Shown piece by piece: positions 12,630 through 22,106 of a stretch of DNA of 42,504 nucleotides. Positions within the stretch are counted from its first letter, which is position 1. Each line of letters begins with the position of its first letter. The DNA is from Candidatus Villigracilaceae bacterium. GTDB lineage: Bacteria > Chloroflexota > Anaerolineae > Anaerolineales > Villigracilaceae. The notes under the pieces were generated by a model. The model saw only the letters and a list, made by a program, of their open reading frames with translations, was not told the DNA's origin and did no database searches. The DNA lies in the NCBI GenBank assembly GCA_026645935.1, contig JAPKMP010000028.1, positions 1 through 42,504 on the forward strand, in the 5' to 3' direction. The translations under genes were made by a program, and so were the position numbers.

Positions 12630-13790
12630 TTATTTCAAAAGGGATATGGTAAACGTGCTTCCTTTGCCCGGTGCGCTGTCAATATCCAGCATCCCCCGGT
12701 GTTGCTGTATGACCTGTCGGGTGATCGATAGTCCAATGCCGATGCCGGAGAAAATTTCTTCGCCGCTCTTTTCAAGATGGAAGAAACGATCAAAGATGCG
12801 CGGGCGGATCGCGGGATCGATGCCGATGCCATAATCCACCACGCTTACGCTGACGTGTTTTCCGAGATCTGCAAACCGGATGTCAACGGTCCCGCCTTGA
12901 TGGCTGAACTTGATGGCATTGTCAATCAGTCCCGTGATGGCGCGCTCCAGAGACGGTTCGTCTCCCTGGACTGGAGGAATGTTCGTGTTCCCCCGAACCT
13001 TGATGGTTACCCGGCGGTCTTTCGTCTTATCCTTGTATTTTTCCAATACCTTTTCCACGAGTGTCACAAGGTTTACGGGTTGAAAGTCGCGCAGGACGAG
13101 TTCCTGCTCCTGAAGAAACAGAAGGTCATTTGTAAGGTTGACGATCTGGTCGATATTGCGGCTGACGATCTCCAGTGTGGATTGAAGTTGTTCACCGGAC
13201 AACACACCCTTCTTAAGGGTGTGCAAGTATCCGCTGGCGACCATGAGGGGCGTTCTTAATTCATGCGCGATATTGGTGAGGAATTCATTTCGCGCCATTT
13301 CCTGCTCGGCGAGTTTTTGATACGCATCTGCGATCTCCCGCGCGCGCAGACGCAGGTCTTCGATGGCGAGCTGATCGTTCGCTCTTAACCGGTTGCTGAT
13401 CTCGGAAACCATGGCGGTCGCCACGCTGGGACTATGCTTTAATACACGGTTGAACCCGTCTTTTTCCAGTTCGAGCACGACAACCGGGGTCGTCGCTTTT
13501 ACGGTTGCGGCTCGCGGAGCGTTATGGATGAGCGCCATCTCACCGAAGAAATCTCCGGCGCTTAATGTCTTCAGCAGGCGCGCTTCCATGTTGTTGATGG
13601 TTTTGGTGACCTCGAATTCGCCCTCAAGGATCATGTAAAACGTGAATTCGACCGCATCCTCCTGGCAAAGAATCGTCCCAGCCGGATAGGATTTGATCTG
13701 GCTGTTTACGATGATTTCCTGCACTTCATCAGGAGTGATGCCGGGGAATGCGCGCGGGATGATTTTTGCGGGGGTGCGAAGGGTGGTCAT
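12630..13790 (-). CDS. Cyclic nucleotide-binding domain sensor histidine kinase
   Basis: The 386-residue soluble kinase has an N-terminal cNMP-binding fold (about 20-125) with LEGEFEV, GDFFGEMALIHNAPRAATV and VLELEKDGF. A coiled-coil linker (about 130-168) follows, then the HisKA dimerisation domain with IAHELRTPL and phospho-acceptor His176. The HATPase domain has the N box (GLIDNAIKFSH), the G1 box (VDYGIGIDPAIRPRIFDRFFH-type) and the G2 box (GIGIGLSI). No transmembrane segment is present, so it would sense an internal ligand. The phosphate-binding cassette APRAATV looks intact. No response regulator lies beside it; the partner must be elsewhere. The input domain is an uncommon sensor for a kinase. 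Confidence 0.9.
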   Translation of the reverse strand: MTTLRTPAKIIPRAFPGITPDEVQEIIVNSQIKSYPAGTILCQEDAVEFTFYMILEGEFEVTKTINNMEARLLKTLSAGDFFGEMALIHNAPRAATVKATTPVVVLELEKDGFNRVLKHSPSVATAMVSEISNRLRANDQLAIEDLRLRAREIADAYQKLAEQEMARNEFLTNIAHELRTPLMVASGYLHTLKKGVLSGEQLQSTLEIVSRNIDQIVNLTNDLLFLQEQELVLRDFQPVNLVTLVEKVLEKYKDKTKDRRVTIKVRGNTNIPPVQGDEPSLERAITGLIDNAIKFSHQGGTVDIRFADLGKHVSVSVVDYGIGIDPAIRPRIFDRFFHLEKSGEEIFSGIGIGLSITRQVIQQHRGMLDIDSAPGKGSTFTISLLK

Positions 13791-14092: not shown

Positions 14093-14578
14093 TTAGGGTG
14101 GATACATGGTGGGCAGGGTTGATACGTCGAAGGAAGGGTCGAAGGTCACATAGGATGCGCTGACCCAGCACATCGATCCGTAAATGGGGTTTTCGATAAC
14201 ATACCAGCCTGGCACACTTCCAATACCCATCACATATACTTCCTCAGTATCCGAGAGGTTGCTGATAAGCCCATATTGGCTGCCGGGACCCGCGTAGCAG
14301 GCGGTATTACCTGAAATTTTCGGAATGCTCGTCACAGCGGGTGTGGGTTCGATAGTTGGCGTATCGGTGAAGAGGGGAATCGGCGTATCAGTGGGCGGAA
14401 GAGGGGTGGGGGTATAGGCCGCGGCCGTTTGAGTGAGCATTATCGATGCAAGTTGGGCGGCGGTCGTTCCAATCACATCGACCGTGGGCGCTGCGTTCGA
14501 TTGTTGCGGCGCGCACGATGTGGACAAAATTGCTGAAACTTGAATTACCAGAATGGGAAATAACTTTGCGCGTCTCAT
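14093..14578 (-). CDS. Lipoprotein with Thr/Pro-rich linker and SH3b-like domain
   Basis: The 161-residue protein begins MRRAKLFPILVIQVSAILSTSC, a signal peptide with lipobox LSTSC at about residue 22. A Thr/Pro-rich linker (about 55-90, with repeated PTPLPPTDTP-type runs) is typical of Chloroflexota surface proteins. The C-terminal portion (ACYAGPGSQYGLISNL to GWYVIENP and MCWVSASYV) is the core of a bacterial SH3 domain, a fold that binds peptidoglycan or peptides outside the cell. The frame is open upstream of 14578 but the signal peptide begins there, with CGGAG upstream. Likely anchored on the outer face of the membrane. Partner unknown. Confidence 0.75.
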   Translation of the reverse strand: MRRAKLFPILVIQVSAILSTSCAPQQSNAAPTVDVIGTTAAQLASIMLTQTAAAYTPTPLPPTDTPIPLFTDTPTIEPTPAVTSIPKISGNTACYAGPGSQYGLISNLSDTEEVYVMGIGSVPGWYVIENPIYGSMCWVSASYVTFDPSFDVSTLPTMYPP

Positions 14579-14677
14579 TTGTTGTCTCCGGGTTTGGGAT
14601 TGAATTTTACCCGTCTTTTTTGTTGTATCGCTGAGAATATCATGAGGGGAGAGTCTAACATCCGACACATCAGATTA

Positions 14678-14764: not shown

Positions 14765-14833
14765 TTCTTATCTTTGATATTGGACACTCCCATGATGAGG
14801 CTCTCCAGTTTGACTTATGCCAAAATAAAATTA

Positions 14834-14865
14834 TAAAGGCAGCCTCCCGGAGAAAGCTGCCTTTA
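14834..14865 (-). terminator. Terminator hairpin after the YeeE/YedE-rhodanese gene
   Basis: TAAAGGCAGC pairs with GCTGCCTTTA over a 12-base loop, followed on the minus strand by an AT-rich stretch. It sits about 30 bases past the stop of the last gene of the leftward sulfur cluster. A second, smaller inverted repeat (TTTCACG/CGTGAAA, 14872-14888) lies between it and the gene. Confidence 0.6.
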
Positions 14866-14896
14866 TTCATATTTCACGAGCCGTGAAATTTGTCAA

Positions 14897-16204
14897 TTAA
14901 CCACAACCACCGCCCGATTTGTCCCGTTTCAACTGCAATTGGATCTTGGCTTCAAATTCCAGTTTTTCATATTCGATCGGGTCGGGCGAGCAGGATTCGT
15001 AGCGGCTGCCCAAAGCCGCGGGGAAGATGTAACCCAATTCATCGTCACCCGGATTCGGCTTGGGTTGAGCCGTGAGCGACTTGTCATCCCTGCCGAAAAA
15101 CGCGATCCAGTTATTTACGCCGCCCTCGAGGATGTATACGTTCGGAACGGCAGACGCTGAAAGAAATTTCCACGCCTCAACTGCTGCCGTTTCGTCGTTG
15201 CTCATCAGTATGAAGACCGTGTTTGCGGGCGGCTCTGTGAGCAGAACGGGGACGACTTCCGCCAGGCGTTCGAACGGAACATTCACCGCATCTTCGATGT
15301 GGTAGAGGTTGTAATCCGCTTCGCTGCGCACATCGAGATAAACCGGATTCATCGCCTGGTTGTACTTTGCCTTGAAGGCTTCTGCCGGTGTGATGAAGGC
15401 AATACGATTTTGAAGCATTTCATCCGCAGTGTATGTATGGGTATTAACGATGGGGTCTGCGTTTTCCTGCGGGATCGTCTCGGTGCGAGTAAAAGCCAGA
15501 CTGGCGTAATTATCTTCGAGCGAGGGGGAACCGATGAACACGACGGCAAGTGCGGCGGCGAAAAGAACGCCTGCTCCGACCAGGCGGGGTTTGGGTTCTT
15601 TGCTCAAATCCTTTTTCCCGAAGATGCGCTCGAGTTGTTCTGCGCCCCAGAACATGAAGAGCGCCATCAGCACGGCCAACAAGACGACTACACCAAGCGG
15701 CAGGTTGAAAACCTGGTCGAGTGTGACGCGCCCAAAGTACCCGGAGTTGTTCCACCAATTGGTGAAGAAACGTTCGGTCTCGCCGAAAAGGAATGCGCCG
15801 ACGAAGCCGCCCAGCATAAAGAACATGCCGTCGATCTTGCCGGTTGAAGCAGAGGCGAGTGACGTGGTGGGGCAAAATCCGCCAATGATGAAGCCGACAC
15901 CCATGATCAAACCGCCGAGAATACCCGAGGATAGGTAGGTGGGATTGACCCAGACCTGGTTGAAGTTCAAAATGCCTAACCCCACGGCGCCGAAGGTCAA
16001 CACCATGGCGGTGACGATCGCGGTGAACATTACTTTGAGCACGGTCATTTCAGTGAAGTAGAACTGCGCCGCAAGTTTGCGCGAGTCACCGAAGCCGGAC
16101 ATCTCAAGCGTGTAGCCAAACGCGAAGCCGATCATTCCAAAGACGATATATGTCCAAGGGTTGGAAGTGCTGACCGCTACAAATTCAGGGAGAGGGAAGT
16201 TCAT
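14897..16204 (-). CDS. YeeE/YedE-family sulfur transporter half with C-terminal degenerate rhodanese domain
   Basis: The 435-residue protein has two parts. Residues 15 to about 225 form several membrane helices of the YeeE/YedE (TsuA-like) family, with EMSGFGDSRKLAAQFYF and GGLIMGVGFIIGGFCPTTS; Cys111 is the type of Cys used to pass thiosulfate. Residues about 265-370 are a rhodanese-like domain (VYLDVRSEADYNLYHIEDAVNVP, later YILEGGVNNWIAF). Its active-site loop reads FILMSNDETAAVEAW, so the catalytic Cys is replaced (Ser335 region). It may bind rather than transfer sulfur. Two Cys near the C-terminus (405 and 434, tail GGGCG) may substitute. It follows the partner YeeE gene by 12 bases. Family members import thiosulfate or reduced sulfur. 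Confidence 0.85.
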   Translation of the reverse strand: MNFPLPEFVAVSTSNPWTYIVFGMIGFAFGYTLEMSGFGDSRKLAAQFYFTEMTVLKVMFTAIVTAMVLTFGAVGLGILNFNQVWVNPTYLSSGILGGLIMGVGFIIGGFCPTTSLASASTGKIDGMFFMLGGFVGAFLFGETERFFTNWWNNSGYFGRVTLDQVFNLPLGVVVLLAVLMALFMFWGAEQLERIFGKKDLSKEPKPRLVGAGVLFAAALAVVFIGSPSLEDNYASLAFTRTETIPQENADPIVNTHTYTADEMLQNRIAFITPAEAFKAKYNQAMNPVYLDVRSEADYNLYHIEDAVNVPFERLAEVVPVLLTEPPANTVFILMSNDETAAVEAWKFLSASAVPNVYILEGGVNNWIAFFGRDDKSLTAQPKPNPGDDELGYIFPAALGSRYESCSPDPIEYEKLEFEAKIQLQLKRDKSGGGCG

Positions 16205-16216
16205 GATAGTTCTCCT

Positions 16217-16762
16217 TTAGTTCCACAACTTGCGGACGAAATATGCCAACCCATACGCGCCGCCGAAGATGGCGAACATCACAACCCACGAACCAGCCGA
16301 GAGCGTTGTGCCGCCCGTTAACGCCTGCCCGGATGTACATCCGCGGGCCATGCGAGCGCCATAGAGGAAGATCACGCCGCCGAGGAACGCCATCAACCAG
16401 CGGGTTCGGTTCGATACATTGGGACCTTTGGTGGTTTCAAATTTCAAACGGCCGTTGAACAATCCCGAGGCAAACCCGCCAATCAGCGCACCAATGTATA
16501 CCGGGACGATCCAGTCATCAAGCGGATTTTTGTCTCCGCCCGCCATTTTGAGTAGATATGGAGTGCGGTCCACATGTGCAGGATCAACGGCGTCGGTCAC
16601 GGCGGTGACAAAGCGACTGGTTGCTCCGGAGGAGCCCAATCCGTTGCCGGTCAGCAAGAGAGCGAGGAAGAGCACAATTCCCAGGACCGACCCGCCAAAG
16701 TATGGATGGACAAAAGGCTTGGGTGTTTTCGGGAAGAGCGGTTTTCGTGTTTGTGCGGTCAT
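16217..16762 (-). CDS. YeeE/YedE-family sulfur transporter half
   Basis: The 181-residue membrane protein has about four hydrophobic stretches (VLGIVLFLALLLTGNG, VPVYIGALIGGFASGLF, WLMAFLGGVIFLYGARM, WVVMFAIFGGAYGLAYF) and the family signature ARGCTSGQALTGG, with Cys142 placed to bind or relay a sulfur compound. YeeE/YedE proteins occur either as one long chain or as two short ones; here this gene and the following one (14897-16204) are probably the two halves of one importer. It lies 86 bases after the cytochrome b fusion gene. That gap holds an AT-rich segment with a repeat shared with the suf operon (16803-16816). Confidence 0.85.
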   Translation of the reverse strand: MTAQTRKPLFPKTPKPFVHPYFGGSVLGIVLFLALLLTGNGLGSSGATSRFVTAVTDAVDPAHVDRTPYLLKMAGGDKNPLDDWIVPVYIGALIGGFASGLFNGRLKFETTKGPNVSNRTRWLMAFLGGVIFLYGARMARGCTSGQALTGGTTLSAGSWVVMFAIFGGAYGLAYFVRKLWN

Positions 16763-16802
16763 TTGTTCTCCTTGGTTAAAAGGTCAAGGTTGAAGATTGC
16801 AT

Positions 16803-16816
16803 GTTACAGGTTGAAG
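16803..16816 (+). repeat. 14-base direct repeat, copy 1 (second copy at 25585-25598)
   Basis: GTTACAGGTTGAAG occurs here in the 86-base gap between the cytochrome fusion and YeeE genes, and identically in the gap between sufB and sufD. The surrounding sequence is AT-rich and contains further ATTGTTCATCATT-type near-repeats. No function is known. Confidence 0.5.
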
Positions 16817-16848
16817 AATTAAGATTGATATTCATTCTTCATTGTTCA

Positions 16849-19548
16849 TCATTCAGATACAGGCACTTCCACCTCTTCATATCCCGTCACCATCCCGCGC
16901 ATCGCCTCGAGCGGAGTTGCGCCTGTCGTGGTGAGATAGACATGCCCGACGATAAACGACGCGAACAACCAGGCCATCAGGGTGTGCATGGGGGCGAGGA
17001 ATGGCAGGCCGCCGAACCAGGTTTGGATGGCGGGAACTTTTTGAACCAGCCACATCAACATGCCGGTCATGCCTTGTAAGGGGAGCAGAATACCGAGCAA
17101 ACCGATATATGTGACCATTTGCAAGGGATTGAACTTTCTCTGCTTCGATTTGTGGAATGGATGCGGTTCATGCTTGAAGATACCCATGATGTAGTATTTT
17201 GCCTGCGCGATCATCTGGTCGATAAACCCATAAGGGTGCGGGATGTATTGCTGAATCTCGCCGCTGATAAAATGCCAGAGGATCGAGATCAGCGCATTGA
17301 GAGCGAGCAATACCGCCAACACGTTATGGATGGTGACGATATTGCGGAAGGAGAATGCGCCGAACAGGTCGGGACGGTGGATGACAAGCCCGGTCAACAG
17401 CAGGATGACGATGGCGGCGGTTTGCAGCCAGTGCCAGAAGCGTTCGTACGCTTCATACATGTAAACGGTTTTGGTTGCCACGTTTGGACGTCTGAGCTTG
17501 CGCGCTGCAAGGAAGCGGAAGGTGGCATGCCCTCCCACGCCGAAGACGGTGCCGACGAAAAGCAGCGCGCCGAACCAGTCGATCCATGCGACGCGGTTGT
17601 GGCCAAAGATATATGTCTTATCGTTCTCGTTGACAGGGTTGTAATATAACGAGCCGTTGTTATTGATGATGCTCCCTGTTGGCGTAACGTTTACGCCCTG
17701 TGAAAATTCGGGCACAACACCAGTTGGTGCTGAGTCTGCCAGCAGGATCGGGGCAGTGACTCGCGAGTCTGTGTTGTGGCAGGTGGCGCAGTCGCTCGTC
17801 GCATCCGTGCTGTCGACCACATTATGGTTGATGGAATAGGGTTGAACCTGACCTTCGATGCGGACATTCTTCAGTCCCAGCGCCTCGAGCTTATCTGCAA
17901 TGAGATTTTGTTTGCCTTCGGTATCCAGGACAAGCTCTTCATCGGAGAGTTTGCCGTCGCTGTCCGCATCGAAGGCGGAAAGCACATCGGCGGAATAATT
18001 GCTGCGGTCGAAGTAAACAGTTTCCAGGTCCATTTTGCGAACCGGGCGAAGATTTCCGTTTGCGTCTTCGTACACCCAGTAGAACGAGGTGATCAGGTTG
18101 TACGGTGCGAAGAGGATTTTTCCGTCAATAATGTCCTCGCGTTGCATCAATACAGGCTGGAAGCCGGTAACGAGATCGGTCGTGGTATTCGAACCTTCGA
18201 TGCCGCGACATTCAGAACGGGCGGACCCATCCAGGCGCAATACGGTCCAGTCCATGGTGGAGAAGGCCGGAGCGTACATTTCCGGAATATGACAGGTCTC
18301 ACAGGCGATGACCTGCATGTGGCGGTCATTGTATGGGAGCCAGCCTGCGTGCGATTTGTTGGTGTCATGGCATGATTCGCAGCGGCGCATGGTGCTTTTT
18401 AATTCAGGCGCGATATTGAACTGCGCGCTCACACCCCGGGCGAAATTGTGATCGGGTCTTTCAAGATATTCGCCGATCTCCAGTTTGCGCGGATCATAAA
18501 CAAGATGGTCGGGGTTATCCTCCTGAGTTTCGAGCACATGCGCAGGATTATTGGGTGCAAAGTGGCAATCAGTGCATTTCAATTGACGTTGCGCGTGAAT
18601 ATCCCACGAGCGGGTCAGATCGGCTTTATTTGAGAGATTCATGCCCGATTCACTGATCTTTTGGGAAGCGATGACCTGACCCGTGGTCGCGGTCTGGAAA
18701 TAATCCAAATCGCAGGCATTGATGGTGAGCGGAATCTCCGTCGCCGCATGGACTTCACCATGACAGGCGGCGCAGTTTTCATTGGTTGGGTCTTGAATAC
18801 CAAGCGATTCGTTCTTGATCTCGCCGTTCTCGTTGAAAATTTCGGGATTGTATGACCAATCTTCCGCGGTTTGACTGACGATGTTCAAGCCAAGCAAGGT
18901 TGCGGTGGTGGCGTTGCCGAATTCGCCCGATTGAATCGCTGCTACGCGGGCATCATTATTTGGCGTTTCAAGATGGCAAAGGAAGCAGTTCATTTCGATC
19001 GTGCCTGATTCATCCCAATTCCAAGCAGTGACATTTCCGTTCTCTTCGAGGATGGCGGTTTCAGGATCGTCTTTATTTGTTTTCAAGTCGATGAGAGGCT
19101 GTCCATCCCGGGAGATTTCAGCGGGTCCGCCGCCGACAACGCGAGAGCCGTTAAGCATCAACCACTCGGCGGTGCTCAGGTCGAGTCGTTCATCGTTCCC
19201 TGTTGAAAGAAATCGATAGGTGAGCGGATTCCATTCGCCAAAGAGACCGTTACTTGTATCGAAATTTGCGCTGGAGGGAGAATAATCGCTCAAACCGAGG
19301 TCAGAGTGGAAGGCGTGCGATTGGATGAACCCGGTGTCGTGACATTGCCCGCAGGTTTGCATGGCGGATACGGTGCCTCCGCTCTCGAGAACGCTGACGC
19401 CATCCGCATCGAGCAGGAGGAAGTCTGGGTGCAATACCGAGGCTTGAGAAGTCGGGACAGTTGTCGGCGCGGCAAGAGCCGCGTTTATTCCGAGGGCAAG
19501 CGCGAGGACAATTAATCCGGCAAGTGTGATGAGAGTGTATCTTTTCAT
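16849..19548 (-). CDS. Multihaem cytochrome c fused to membrane cytochrome b anchor
   Basis: The 899-residue protein has a signal sequence (residues 1-27), then an exported domain with seven CXXCH haem sites (C66, C188, C259, C325, C390, C416, C587), including CETCHIP, also present as CQTCHIP in the adjacent octahaem protein. An EF-hand-type loop DADSDGKLSDEE lies at 527-538. From about 655 to 880 are membrane helices of a cytochrome b561/Ni-Fe-hydrogenase-type b subunit, with RFWHWLQTAAI, VTIHNVLAVLLALNAL, MHTLMAWLFASFIVGHVY. These could hold two haem b and exchange electrons with quinone. It starts three bases after the stop of the octahaem gene. Probable role: quinone-linked redox partner of the octahaem enzyme outside the membrane. 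Substrate unknown. Confidence 0.85.
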   Translation of the reverse strand: MKRYTLITLAGLIVLALALGINAALAAPTTVPTSQASVLHPDFLLLDADGVSVLESGGTVSAMQTCGQCHDTGFIQSHAFHSDLGLSDYSPSSANFDTSNGLFGEWNPLTYRFLSTGNDERLDLSTAEWLMLNGSRVVGGGPAEISRDGQPLIDLKTNKDDPETAILEENGNVTAWNWDESGTIEMNCFLCHLETPNNDARVAAIQSGEFGNATTATLLGLNIVSQTAEDWSYNPEIFNENGEIKNESLGIQDPTNENCAACHGEVHAATEIPLTINACDLDYFQTATTGQVIASQKISESGMNLSNKADLTRSWDIHAQRQLKCTDCHFAPNNPAHVLETQEDNPDHLVYDPRKLEIGEYLERPDHNFARGVSAQFNIAPELKSTMRRCESCHDTNKSHAGWLPYNDRHMQVIACETCHIPEMYAPAFSTMDWTVLRLDGSARSECRGIEGSNTTTDLVTGFQPVLMQREDIIDGKILFAPYNLITSFYWVYEDANGNLRPVRKMDLETVYFDRSNYSADVLSAFDADSDGKLSDEELVLDTEGKQNLIADKLEALGLKNVRIEGQVQPYSINHNVVDSTDATSDCATCHNTDSRVTAPILLADSAPTGVVPEFSQGVNVTPTGSIINNNGSLYYNPVNENDKTYIFGHNRVAWIDWFGALLFVGTVFGVGGHATFRFLAARKLRRPNVATKTVYMYEAYERFWHWLQTAAIVILLLTGLVIHRPDLFGAFSFRNIVTIHNVLAVLLALNALISILWHFISGEIQQYIPHPYGFIDQMIAQAKYYIMGIFKHEPHPFHKSKQRKFNPLQMVTYIGLLGILLPLQGMTGMLMWLVQKVPAIQTWFGGLPFLAPMHTLMAWLFASFIVGHVYLTTTGATPLEAMRGMVTGYEEVEVPVSE

Positions 19549-19551
19549 GGC

Positions 19552-20988
19552 TTATCTCCCGCCCCATTCAATTGGGTCGCCGGGGTAACCAAGAGTTACC
19601 CAATCCATGCGGCCATTCTCGCCGTGGCAGGATTCGCATTGCAAGGCGTTCTCTGCCGGCTGGACCATATGGGTGGAGGGGTAGTACATGTATGTGGTGG
19701 TAAATCCGTATTCGCCGCTGTAATCGAGTCCGACAACAGGTTCGGCAAGTTCGAAGGCGGCATCCCAATCGAATTCGCTCCAGTAACCACCTTCGCCTGC
19801 AGTAATGGGTTGGAGCAGGTAATTATTCACGACATCGTAGGGTTGTTTGGCAATGTGTAGTTTGAAAGGGAACACTTTGGCTGAGGGGTCGTCGATACCA
19901 CCCGCGGGTTTGTTGATGTAGGTAATGCCATCCTTGCCGAGCGGGTCGCCGAGCAGATAACGGTATTCGTTGTTTCCGTTGAACCAGAGATAGGCAGGCG
20001 CGAAGTTCTTCTCGTAAATAAACTCGCCTTTGATCTTGAGGTAGATGAAGTGATCGTCTTCGCGTCCATCCTGACCGGCTTGTGACCAGTCCCAGTAGAC
20101 TTTGGTGGGATCTTCCAGCGCGAGCGCAGGAATGTGGCAGGTCTGGCAGGCAACGGAAGCAAGATGGGTGTTTATGCGTTCGTCTTCGTGCTGTTGGTCG
20201 ATGTGGCATTGCTCACAAGAAACCTGTTCTTGTGGGTCAATGGTGTAATTATCAGGGAGCAATCGTCCGAGGATTTGGTGATCTTTTGTCCAATGGCAGT
20301 CGGTGCATAGCAAGTTCAGTTCGCCGCCCATGTGGACATCGAGATTGTTGGAGGGAAAATACAGGCTCTCGTCGAGATCGCCATGTTTGACACCGTTGCC
20401 GCCGCCACCGTCGAAATGACAGGCTCCACAGTTATCGCGGGTTGGCGCGCGCACACTTCTCGCCGCGGCGAGCAGGTCGATCCCTGCGGCAGGATTGCCG
20501 AATTCGCCTTTCCCATAAACGCCAAGGTCGGCATGACAGGCGAGGCAGTCAACGTTTTCTGGGTTGGCTTGCTGAACTTCACGTCCTTCTTCCCAGCCGT
20601 ATCCGGCATGACAAGCCATGCATTTGTTCTCGTTGCCTTGTGAGCCGATGCAGAAGTTATTAATCTGATTGGCTTTGCCTATGGTGGCAGGTTCGTCGCG
20701 CCAGGGAACATCGAATTCCTTCGATTCCCAAGTCCAGTGGGTGGTAGCCATTAATTCAGTTGCGGCGTTTTCGTGACATTCGAGGCAGGCGCGGGTAACA
20801 TCCTGCCCGGTGATAAATTCACCCTGAACGATATCGGCGTGGTCCACATGGATTGGTTTTTCGGGCAGATACGCTGCAGGATCATTCTTGGTTTGAGTGC
20901 GGGGTAGGAAGTACAAAATTGGGGCGAGAATCAGCAAAAGAATGCCGACCAGTCCCAGTGTCCAGGAAGGGAGGCGAAGATTTTTCAT
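19552..20988 (-). CDS. Octahaem cytochrome c, tetrathionate reductase (OTR)-like
   Basis: The 478-residue protein has an uncleaved-looking N-terminal membrane anchor (about 10-29) and eight CXXCH motifs (C68, C123, C148, C187, C228, C258, C281, C451). The segment NNFCIGSQGNENKCMACHAGYGW (in pieces, residues 111-132) matches the region around the active-site haem of octahaem tetrathionate reductase, in which a lysine is the distal ligand. CQTCHIP and the final CESCHGENGRMDW are also family-like. Relatives reduce tetrathionate, and also nitrite or hydroxylamine in vitro, so the physiological substrate is open. Its start codon overlaps the stop of the ArsR gene (ATGA), so the two are translationally coupled. 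The next gene supplies a b-type membrane partner. Confidence 0.85.
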   Translation of the reverse strand: MKNLRLPSWTLGLVGILLLILAPILYFLPRTQTKNDPAAYLPEKPIHVDHADIVQGEFITGQDVTRACLECHENAATELMATTHWTWESKEFDVPWRDEPATIGKANQINNFCIGSQGNENKCMACHAGYGWEEGREVQQANPENVDCLACHADLGVYGKGEFGNPAAGIDLLAAARSVRAPTRDNCGACHFDGGGGNGVKHGDLDESLYFPSNNLDVHMGGELNLLCTDCHWTKDHQILGRLLPDNYTIDPQEQVSCEQCHIDQQHEDERINTHLASVACQTCHIPALALEDPTKVYWDWSQAGQDGREDDHFIYLKIKGEFIYEKNFAPAYLWFNGNNEYRYLLGDPLGKDGITYINKPAGGIDDPSAKVFPFKLHIAKQPYDVVNNYLLQPITAGEGGYWSEFDWDAAFELAEPVVGLDYSGEYGFTTTYMYYPSTHMVQPAENALQCESCHGENGRMDWVTLGYPGDPIEWGGR

Positions 20989-21332
20989 ACATTCTCCTGA
21001 ATGTTTTCGTTGATCAGGTTGGATTGATACGCAAGCCGGTCGCGCATGATACTGCGCATCAAATCCAGCGCCTGGATGAGTCTGTTATCGCTCAGGTGAT
21101 ACGTGATGGTTGTCCCACTGCGTACGGCGGTCACCAGGCCGCGCTCGCGTAAAACCTTGAGATGGCGCGACGCAGTGGGTTGGTTCAAGCCGAGTTCGCC
21201 GGAAAGCTCTGTTACATTGTGGGCTCCCTCATTCAACGCGTACAAGATGAGCAGCCGGTTTGGATCGGAGAGCGCCGCGCAAAAATTGGCTTCGAGCTGG
21301 GTGATTTCCTGTTTGAGAGTGGGGGTTACCAT
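20985..21332 (-). CDS. ArsR-family winged-helix regulator of the sulfur-redox cluster
   Basis: The 115-residue protein has an ArsR/SmtB winged helix: ANFCAALSDPNRLLILYAL, then VTELSGELGLNQPTASRHLKVLRERGLV (recognition helix) and the wing SGTTITYHL. One Cys (C19) is in helix 1; there is no CVC metal box, so a redox or sulfide/persulfide signal is more likely than metal. The start at 21332 is chosen because AGGAAGG is nine bases upstream; the frame is open further but that part lacks homology. It overlaps the octahaem gene by four bases (ATGA) and probably represses its own operon. An AT-rich region with inverted repeats lies upstream. Confidence 0.88.
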   Translation of the reverse strand: MVTPTLKQEITQLEANFCAALSDPNRLLILYALNEGAHNVTELSGELGLNQPTASRHLKVLRERGLVTAVRSGTTITYHLSDNRLIQALDLMRSIMRDRLAYQSNLINENIQENV

Positions 21333-21409
21333 GCTCACCTTCCTATATACATATAAACGAATATTTACAACAGCATCATAATATTGTGACAGTTTGTACA
21401 ATAGTGAGA

Positions 21410-21440
21410 TGTGTCATATTAAGTTTCGTTTAATGTCACA
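21410..21440. promoter_or_regulatory. Candidate operator between divergent ArsR and XRE-cupin genes
   Basis: TGTGTCATATTAA and TTAATGTCACA form an imperfect inverted repeat around a short spacer, in the 168-base intergenic region. The site is AT-rich like ArsR/SmtB operators. It is about 78 bases upstream of the ArsR start and about 60 upstream of the XRE start, so either protein could use it. This is a pattern match only. Confidence 0.3.
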
Positions 21441-21500: not shown

Positions 21501-22106
21501 ATGGAATCATTTCAGCGGGATGCTATTTCTGTGGATGTGTCTTCCCGGTTGCGCGAACTCCGTGAGGCGCGCGGCATTTCGATGCGCACACTTGCCGCTC
21601 GAAGCGGGCTTTCTGCAAATGCGTTATCGATGATCGAGCGGGGAAAAACGTCACCCTCGGTGAGCACGTTGTACAAGCTGGCAAGCGCCTTGGGGATTTC
21701 GATCACTGCTTTTTTCAGCACTGAGAACGAAAAGAAACAGGTGGTTTTCCTGAAGGGCGATGAACGTACGCGTCTGTCTTTCACTCGCGGCGTGTTCGAA
21801 GCCTTGGGCGGCGAAAATTTCGTGGGGCGTGTGGAACCGTTCATGCTGACAATGGAAAGCGGTGCCTCGTGCGGCCCGCATGACATTGTCCATACCGGAC
21901 ATGAATTTGTCTTTTGTTTGCGGGGAAAGCTGGATTACACAGTCGAAAGGCAGACGTACCGCCTCGAAGCGGGGGACAGCCTGCTCTTCGCGTCCAGGCT
22001 TCGTCATCGCTGGAAGAATCCCACCAACACGGTCACGAACGCGCTGATCATCATCTCGGGCTTTGCCGAGGGTGAAGAACCCCATGCAATGCACTGGAAG
22101 AAATAA
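21501..22106 (+). CDS. XRE-family regulator with C-terminal cupin domain
   Basis: The 201-residue protein has an N-terminal helix-turn-helix (LRELREARGISMRTLAARSGLS, then NALSMIERGKTSPSVSTLYKLA) and a C-terminal cupin_2 barrel (about 120-190) with VHTGHEFVFCLRGKLDYTV, YRLEAGDSLLFASRLRHRW. Such proteins are transcription factors whose cupin binds a small ligand or metal. The ATG at 21501 has GGAGG seven bases before it; an earlier in-frame TTG (21489) overlaps that site and is rejected. It is divergent from the ArsR/octahaem operon and is followed by a terminator, so it may control either neighbour or a remote gene. Confidence 0.88.
   Translation: MESFQRDAISVDVSSRLRELREARGISMRTLAARSGLSANALSMIERGKTSPSVSTLYKLASALGISITAFFSTENEKKQVVFLKGDERTRLSFTRGVFEALGGENFVGRVEPFMLTMESGASCGPHDIVHTGHEFVFCLRGKLDYTVERQTYRLEAGDSLLFASRLRHRWKNPTNTVTNALIIISGFAEGEEPHAMHWKK

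Follow-up and report, generated by a model that had tools for sequence, protein, structure and literature searches.

The octahaem cytochrome c OTR of Shewanella is termed soluble and periplasmic, and a recombinant OTR-family protein from Beggiatoaceae is reported to reduce tetrathionate at up to 93 umol/min/mg (PMC6449678). In an Acidobacteriota bin exposed to tetrathionate, the change in otr transcripts was not significant at day 1, but by day 8 it had reached a 36-fold increase (p < 0.0488; PMC8528874). A Lys ligand is conserved in the family, and MmcA of Methanosarcina, a seven-haem OTR relative that serves as an electron conduit, is described as being without the second haem and this Lys (PMC11024163). 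As to sulfur transfer, a thiosulfate relay through Cys293, Cys91 and Cys22 to cytoplasmic YeeD has been proposed for YeeE of Spirochaeta thermophila (StYeeE; PMC11073785), and SoxY is known to hold sulfur on a C-terminal GGCGG carrier arm (PMC6067878). Here, we describe a block of five genes in which an OTR stands beside proteins that resemble these systems. It is located at positions 14897-21332 of a 42,504-nucleotide stretch of DNA (hereafter the window; contig JAPKMP010000028.1 of assembly GCA_026645935.1) from Candidatus Villigracilaceae bacterium, and encodes an ArsR/SmtB-type regulator, an OTR, a fusion of a haem c domain with a cytochrome b, and two proteins of the YeeE/YedE family. The parts belong to known families, and for the exact machine we found no description: a search of open-access titles and abstract beginnings, with subscription papers and preprints outside its range, returned none of the block, and otr in Anaerolineae bins has been reported in a source whose consulted portion does not mention a cluster (PMC7887784).

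With moderate confidence, we propose from the sequence that the unit catalyzes quinol-dependent reduction of a sulfur oxyanion outside the cytoplasm, most likely tetrathionate, and that YeeE captures the product; the substrate may also be another species with an S-S bond, such as a polythionate of greater chain length or an S-thiosulfonate attached to a protein. By homology, the cytochrome b domain of the fusion would oxidise menaquinol. Electrons would then pass through its seven c haems, which by their correspondence to OTR haems may belong to a non-catalytic OTR relative, and reach OTR, where the substrate would be reduced at the Lys-ligated haem, as in the family at large. At the outer face of the membrane, the last protein would take up the product, which carries a sulfane and would most simply be thiosulfate. 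A rhodanese domain devoid of Cys may hold or position the product there, a flexible GGCG tail may serve as its thiol arm in the manner of the SoxY GGCGG, and the product may be handed on to two cysteines of a split YeeE pore. ArsR, which has a single invariant Cys, may switch the unit by sensing sulfur species.

Conservation and descent of the five-gene unit

The five genes are one conserved unit and probably one transcription unit (Table 1). The original prediction, made from the window alone, had noted their common direction, an ATGA overlap and a 3-base gap, and the coordinates agree: on the reverse strand, the ArsR stop and OTR start codons overlap by four bases (20985-20988), and three bases (19549-19551) separate the OTR and fusion genes. 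We searched 400 Chloroflexota genomes separately for OTR (over the model cut-off), the fusion (>1000 bits) and the last protein (>450 bits). Each was present in 16 genomes, and these were the same 16, with adjoining matches. Scattering of the homologues in other genomes had been named beforehand as a ground for rejecting the prediction, and this search, in which the genes lie side by side, does not refute it. One further genome of the set (G163) encodes an OTR-like protein below the cut-off (283.6 bits) and has no fusion match, and two more gave weak matches to the OTR model only (23 and 18.5 bits).

Relatives of the fusion were also collected from the genome collection; of the 270 confirmed there, the 80 best were used, a choice that favours close relatives. 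Among named loci in which the contig left room, OTR was present in all 67, a YeeE half in all 76, the last gene in all 65, and ArsR in 54 of 64. A position rule alone gave 64/67 for OTR and 63/65 for the last gene; the three and two misses were found to be present on re-inspection. Five of the ten loci without ArsR are proteobacterial (L126, L130, L131, L132 and L143), and at L151 ArsR-like matches lie on the other side of the block. Wherever there was room to look, one OTR clade is thus tied by the block to a quinone module, to a channel of the thiosulfate type and to a thiol arm, which provides a testable physiological setting. A broken remnant of the block was also seen (L247, contig C18 of G154); it consists of fragments of the fusion and last genes, some with stops, and there is no OTR match in that genome.

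Table 1. Features of the five-gene block, its upstream and downstream DNA, and one sibling gene. Positions are those of the window unless a locus is named.
Feature	Position	Strand	Remarks
Conserved promoter block (TGACATTAA...TTAATATGACAC) with Crp/Fnr-like element (by eye)	21375..21439	-	
Imperfect palindrome ATATTCG-TTTAT-ATGTATAT	21345..21364	-	12 nt ahead of the ArsR start
ArsR/SmtB-type regulator gene, 115 aa	20985..21332	-	ATG start; alternative open TTG start at 21401
OTR-family octahaem cytochrome c gene	19552..20988	-	TIGR04315, PDB 1sp3
Haem c-b fusion gene: seven-haem c domain (OTR/MmcA-like) and cytochrome b561-type membrane domain	16849..19548	-	
YeeE/YedE later-part gene	16217..16762	-	PF04143 positions 176-309 of 310
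YeeE/YedE earlier-part gene with Cys-less rhodanese domain and GGGCG tail	14897..16204	-	PF04143 positions 10-195 of 310; PF00581
Terminator-like hairpin, 15 pairs and T-rich tail	14833..14866	-	about 30 nt beyond the last stop codon
Sibling YeeE earlier-part gene with in-frame TGA (example)	L242:3017-3544	-	TGA at the GGFCP position; adjoins PhsA-like reductase gene

A tree of 66 OTR-family rows, built by a quick method with SH-aLRT support and no bootstrap, places 31 cluster OTRs on one side of a branch (SH-aLRT 99), apart from Shewanella; the rest consists of 30 ordinary proteobacterial rows in one other group and a few outliers, one of them on a very long branch. Six proteobacterial rows (Parasulfuritortus cantonensis LSR1, Thiobacillus, Gallionellaceae, Rubrivivax, Lysobacterales and G720) form one group (100), which nests in a 12-row group (99) with the window and other Anaerolineales. 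The simplest reading of this branching is that the proteobacterial block was transferred from Anaerolineales. Four of these six carriers are metagenome bins, and LSR1 is listed as a strain, so that the carriers comprise, next to uncultured Anaerolineae, at least one named strain open to physiology or genetics. In the order of Parasulfuritortus, 35 of 399 genomes have an OTR over the cut-off; a non-exhaustive test of the 399, made through a weak match of the fusion to the OTR model, placed a fusion beside OTR in G451 and G720, the latter confirmed. A second or third OTR is encoded elsewhere in three of the six proteobacterial carrier genomes searched.

The octahaem enzyme and its electron supply

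The protein predicted to be of OTR type indeed has eight CXXCH motifs and matches TIGR04315 with 536.7 bits (cut-off 375) over model positions 2-440 of 440; against the OTR structure of Shewanella oneidensis (PDB 1sp3) the E-value is 1.6e-128. In the numbering of that structure, all readable rows among 72 cluster OTRs, the window included, retain Cys64 (69/69) and Lys153 (70/70), and we infer that the Lys153 equivalent ligates the second haem. Asp150, which we take to adjoin the active site, just as the roles of Cys64 and Lys153 are assumed from the OTR structure, has been replaced by Asn in 68/70 readable cluster OTRs. It is Asp in 32 of 33 ordinary OTRs. The cluster OTR thus shares family, eight CXXCH motifs, Cys64 and Lys153 with the Shewanella protein, but differs from it in its own clade, in the exchange at Asp150, in a hydrophobic N-terminus that is probably a membrane anchor, and in its constant gene partners. 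Two unusual neighbours of OTR genes were noticed among the relatives: a divergently oriented gene for a 15-haem OTR-related protein of 771 aa beside the block in G042 (L054:10248-12563, +), and a 423-aa gene with a weak (18-bit) YeeE-half match, divergent to an ordinary OTR gene (L209:7655-8926, +).

The description of the next protein as a seven-CXXCH domain fused to a cytochrome b anchor also holds: it has seven CXXCH motifs and reaches PF01292 with 84.2 bits at residues 698-889. Its best NCBIfam model, below the cut-off (135.1 bits versus 204), is the thiosulfate reductase cytochrome b PRK15006. Aligned by hhalign, the c domain and OTR match with 97.4% probability (E 1.4e-11), haems 2-6 of the fusion corresponding to haems 3-7 of OTR. 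The segment of OTR that carries the Lys has no partner in the fusion in this profile alignment, which is compatible with either OTR haem 1 or haem 2 as the lost one. Because this segment is unmatched, and because the conduit MmcA has neither the second haem nor the Lys, we read the c domain as an OTR/MmcA-like conduit and not as an enzyme. Seven haems, an OTR-like character and, in the profile alignment, the missing counterpart of the catalytic Lys are common to both proteins; in contrast to MmcA, which stands beside Rnf, the fusion is joined to a cytochrome b, stands beside OTR, and scores 41.6 bits with the MmcA equivalog TIGR04314, below the cut-off of 250. Residues 521-539 in the haem c part form an EF-hand-like stretch below the Pfam cut-off (17.9 versus 25.9), largely kept in relatives as judged by eye, and the fusion gene of G031 (L015; G031:C72:20756-23440) has one in-frame TGA inside the match.

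An OTR followed by a cytochrome b is a recurrent pair, which the block extends by seven c haems on the b module. Ordinary OTR genes were sampled at 33 loci (30 from the search of the Parasulfuritortus order and 3 from proteobacterial carriers). A homologue of the fusion's cytochrome b lies on the same strand within 900 nt behind the ordinary OTR gene in 22 of the 30 sampled loci with room, and is missing there in eight; three loci had no room behind the gene. A stricter rule of overlap and distance gave 12/29, with four loci lacking room, and was judged too strict. The homologues that were inspected stand alone and are about 200 residues long. From their place behind ordinary OTR genes, we take OTR to be quinol-linked, and a thiosulfate-reductase-type cytochrome b is likewise described downstream of Beggiatoaceae otr (PMC6449678). 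The block shares with these loci the pairing of an octahaem enzyme with a b561-type quinone module, but here the seven-haem domain is joined to that module, and the split YeeE comes next.

The split YeeE, the rhodanese domain and the thiol arm

The last two genes had been predicted to encode a pair of YeeE/YedE proteins. Both reach PF04143 (74.8 and 59.4 bits, gathering 27), but because they cover different parts of this model (Table 1), they look like one split channel rather than a pair of channels. Cys142 of the later part (motif ARGCTSG), kept in 75/76 rows, aligns with Cys293 of StYeeE in the alignment to 6leo, and Cys111 of the earlier part (GGFCP), kept in 72/72 rows, falls on Cys91 by manual matching. 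The TsuA equivalog cut-offs are not reached: the later part scores 31.6 and 12 bits versus 400 and 645, the last gene has no TsuA match, and two of the three relay cysteines are present. PF04143 and the equivalents of Cys293 and Cys91 are shared with the YeeE/TsuA-YeeD/TsuB uptake system, for which the described partner is cytoplasmic YeeD (PMC11073785). In contrast to that system, the gene is split here, Cys22 has no equivalent, and the thiol partner would be the GGCG tail, which is probably outside. The window's genome encodes three TusA proteins, a possible cytoplasmic acceptor of sulfur.

Two parts of the last protein had been missed in the original prediction: a rhodanese domain without Cys and the tail behind it. 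The domain scores 45.1 bits (cut-off 22.2) at about residues 286-368. Its loop is MSNDE-like in place of a catalytic Cys, and no Cys occurs in the domain columns in 72/72 rows, three of which are gapped there. The tail reads GGGCG in the window, and the ending GGCG is found in 66/66 complete relatives. In a Foldseek search, the model of the protein matched rhodanese folds (best E 1.1e-3), and the 50 of 387 matches listed include no YeeE; a profile search reached StYeeE weakly (E 0.016-0.03). The positive charges between membrane helices 5 and 6 of this model, whose confidence is modest (mean pLDDT 69.4), suggest that the rhodanese domain and the tail should lie outside, on the haem side. With SoxY, the protein has in common the C-terminal Gly-Gly-Cys-Gly thiol arm; it differs in that no SoxY profile is among its Pfam and NCBIfam matches and in that the tail follows the rhodanese domain of a membrane protein. 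A divergent soxY is reported to adjoin otr in lucinid symbionts (PMC11237559).

Both the carrier arm of SoxY and the soxY genes beside otr would also suit a reverse direction, which we regard as unlikely, in which OTR oxidises sulfane or thiosulfate on the GGCG arm and delivers electrons into the quinone pool during sulfur oxidation or disproportionation. Some of the proteobacterial carriers belong to Parasulfuritortus and Thiobacillus, groups of sulfur oxidisers, and in such carriers the direction could be reversed. The potential of menaquinone is about -80 mV. Compared with the +198 mV quoted for tetrathionate/thiosulfate (PMC8528874), reduction of tetrathionate by menaquinol would thus be downhill, and oxidation of thiosulfate by menaquinone uphill. 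Reduction is also the direction of the enzyme family found in the sibling cassette described below, a PhsA-like reductase.

Regulation and the sibling PhsA-type cluster

ArsR matches PF01022 with 62.1 bits and NF033788 with 82 bits (cut-off 55), and its sole cysteine, Cys18, is invariant in 60/60 aligned rows. It stays below the equivalog cut-offs for BigR (51.1 versus 155 bits) and TsoR (60.4 versus 115 bits). With a single Cys and scores so far under the cut-off, identity as a persulfide sensor of the BigR/SqrR type was dropped. A link to Tso, suggested by the TsoR match, was dropped as well, as that match is below the cut-off and the Tso operon, so far as the consulted part of its description goes, is a different selenoprotein operon (PMC13188914). 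Ahead of the gene, the imperfect palindrome is probably the ArsR operator; a loose form of its pattern fits 33/53 ArsR upstream regions (L079-L158), and a loose Crp-like pattern is present in 32/53.

Seven relatives carry a sibling cluster that encodes a three-haem protein, the later and earlier parts of YeeE, a PhsA-like Mo-enzyme, and FeS and membrane subunits, the last two assigned by eye. ArsR precedes it in six of the seven and was not found in G086. Two of the PhsA-like enzymes were scanned and scored 585 (G023) and 597 bits, below the PhsA cut-off of 694. In five sibling loci the palindrome was looked for by eye; it is clear in L242 and L248, degenerate in L245 and L246, and was not seen in L243. 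Three genomes (G429, G280 and G113) carry both clusters, on different contigs.

In G023, the sibling cluster occupies the site of the OTR block, flanked by the XRE-cupin (81%) and sufT (79%) genes, sufR, and then a large reading frame, sufC and sufB. Its ArsR is 72% identical to that of the window. The 150 nt before ArsR agree with the window at 114/153 alignment positions (75%; score 69 versus a maximum of -10 in 200 shuffles), and in the core promoter block 58/65 bases are identical. Of the evidence for sulfur, this exchange, a kind of natural experiment, is the strongest: it argues that both clusters respond to a similar compound, and sulfur is favoured over nitrogen because the same site, regulator type and promoter carry a YeeE pair with a PhsA-like reductase. 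A PhsA-like cassette can thus fill the site, but where PhsABC/PsrABC have a molybdenum enzyme, the block has an octahaem cytochrome.

The G023 cassette also bears on a rather improbable alternative, in which OTR is a nitrite or hydroxylamine reductase for ammonification or nitrogen-stress detoxification, with the YeeE genes as passengers or as a source of sulfur for repair. External nitrite is a possible substrate, and OTR-family enzymes do reduce nitrite and hydroxylamine in vitro (PMC6449678, PMC11024163), which at the same time counts against sulfur specificity in our proposal. In the 400 Chloroflexota genomes, though, the full last protein was never seen without OTR, nor a cluster-type OTR without the last protein. 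The window's genome (98.7% complete), which has one OTR, gave no match to NIR_SIR, the siroheme sulfite/nitrite reductase family. It has seven matches to Mo-oxidoreductases; among the four scanned, one exceeds a DMSO/selenate-family cut-off and one a formate dehydrogenase cut-off, and none of the four reaches the NarG or NapA cut-offs.

At the codon equivalent to Cys111, the sibling YeeE gene has TGA in five loci (L242, L243, L244, L245 and L248) and Cys in two (L246 and L258). tRNA-Sec was over the cut-off in 9/9 genomes tested versus 5/14 controls. Because TGA recurs at the same codon in five genomes, with Cys in two others and tRNA-Sec in those tested, the TGA in the pore probably encodes selenocysteine, in a new selenoprotein form of YeeE. 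Hairpins after the TGA, folded for three of the five genes as SECIS candidates, had z-values of -0.35, -0.26 and -1.71 (-0.11 for a Cys version) and so do not stand out clearly from shuffles. A GUxSG-type YeeE selenoprotein has already been listed (PMC13188914); with the motif G[FY]UPGT, the present site may differ from that form. If this position is selenocysteine, chemical activity of Cys111 would be indicated. The window's genome also has a molybdopterin-oxidoreductase gene, formate-dehydrogenase-like by eye, that contains an in-frame TGA (L225; G000:C3:42637-44004) and fits selenocysteine use.

Selenocysteine in the sibling YeeE, the ArsR family membership and the role of some YedE proteins in selenium metabolism (NF033796 and TIGR04112 match weakly) would fit reduction and detoxification of a selenium, tellurium or arsenic oxyanion under an ArsR metal sensor, with selenium transport of the YedE type. 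We consider this very unlikely: the selenium models of YeeE are far below their cut-offs (33.5 versus 350 and 20.3 versus 200), the single Cys of ArsR does not amount to the Cys groups that we take to be usual for metal binding, and the five genes include no ars, sel or metal export gene.

We also advance, tentatively and as a doubtful extension of quinol-driven sulfur oxyanion reduction, that the last two proteins are a membrane sulfur carrier, in which the SoxY-like GGCG arm beside a split pore and a non-catalytic extracytoplasmic rhodanese cradle presents Cys-bound sulfur to OTR, what is left of it then passing into the membrane. If so, OTR would act on protein-bound sulfur within a quinol-driven complex, a respiratory design not known to us from elsewhere, and at one regulatory site this complex could be exchanged for one of PhsA type that has selenocysteine in its YeeE pore.

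Several observations weigh against our proposal. Because cluster OTRs differ from ordinary ones at the Asp150 position, their substrate may have shifted and may not be plain tetrathionate. StYeeE Cys22, at the cytoplasmic exit, has no counterpart, the last protein of the window having Cys only at positions 111, 405 and 434. For lack of this third relay cysteine, full inward transport is doubtful; the pore may end before it reaches the cytoplasm, in which case YeeE might do no more than retain or sense sulfur. The five-gene cluster also contains no TusA- or YeeD-like partner, and the side assigned to the rhodanese domain is inferred from charged loops only. The model of the fusion has low confidence in its haem core (residues 283-427, pLDDT < 50), presumably because the haems were unmodelled. 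Foldseek against PDB showed nothing OTR-like among the 50 of 76 matches listed, the plausible partners covering the cytochrome b part only (6g94, E 0.028; 1kqf, E 0.039), so that the OTR kinship of the c domain depends on the profile comparison and weak model matches. As for regulation, the same-site exchange was seen in one genome, the sibling ArsR is only 50-68% identical in G303, G429, G039 and G113, and no promoter common with the window was seen before ArsR in G429. On balance, the quinol-driven reduction of a sulfur oxyanion put forward in the original prediction is supported in part, by the conserved unit, by the cytochrome b link and by the preference for sulfur in G023; the substrate, the direction of electron flow and import of the product are predictions.

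The genes around the unit recur in part. Behind it, a scan found nine terminator-like sites versus a shuffled mean of 7.9, and only length and place favour the hairpin of Table 1. A protein that by eye resembles a small lipoprotein and matches SH3 weakly, below the cut-off (14093-14668, -), is found downstream of the unit in several relatives, as is a histidine kinase with an N-terminal cyclic-nucleotide-binding domain (12630-13790, -). On the other side, a divergent XRE-cupin regulator gene (21501-22106, +) shares its intergenic region with ArsR in many loci, and is followed by sufT, sufR and the suf operon.

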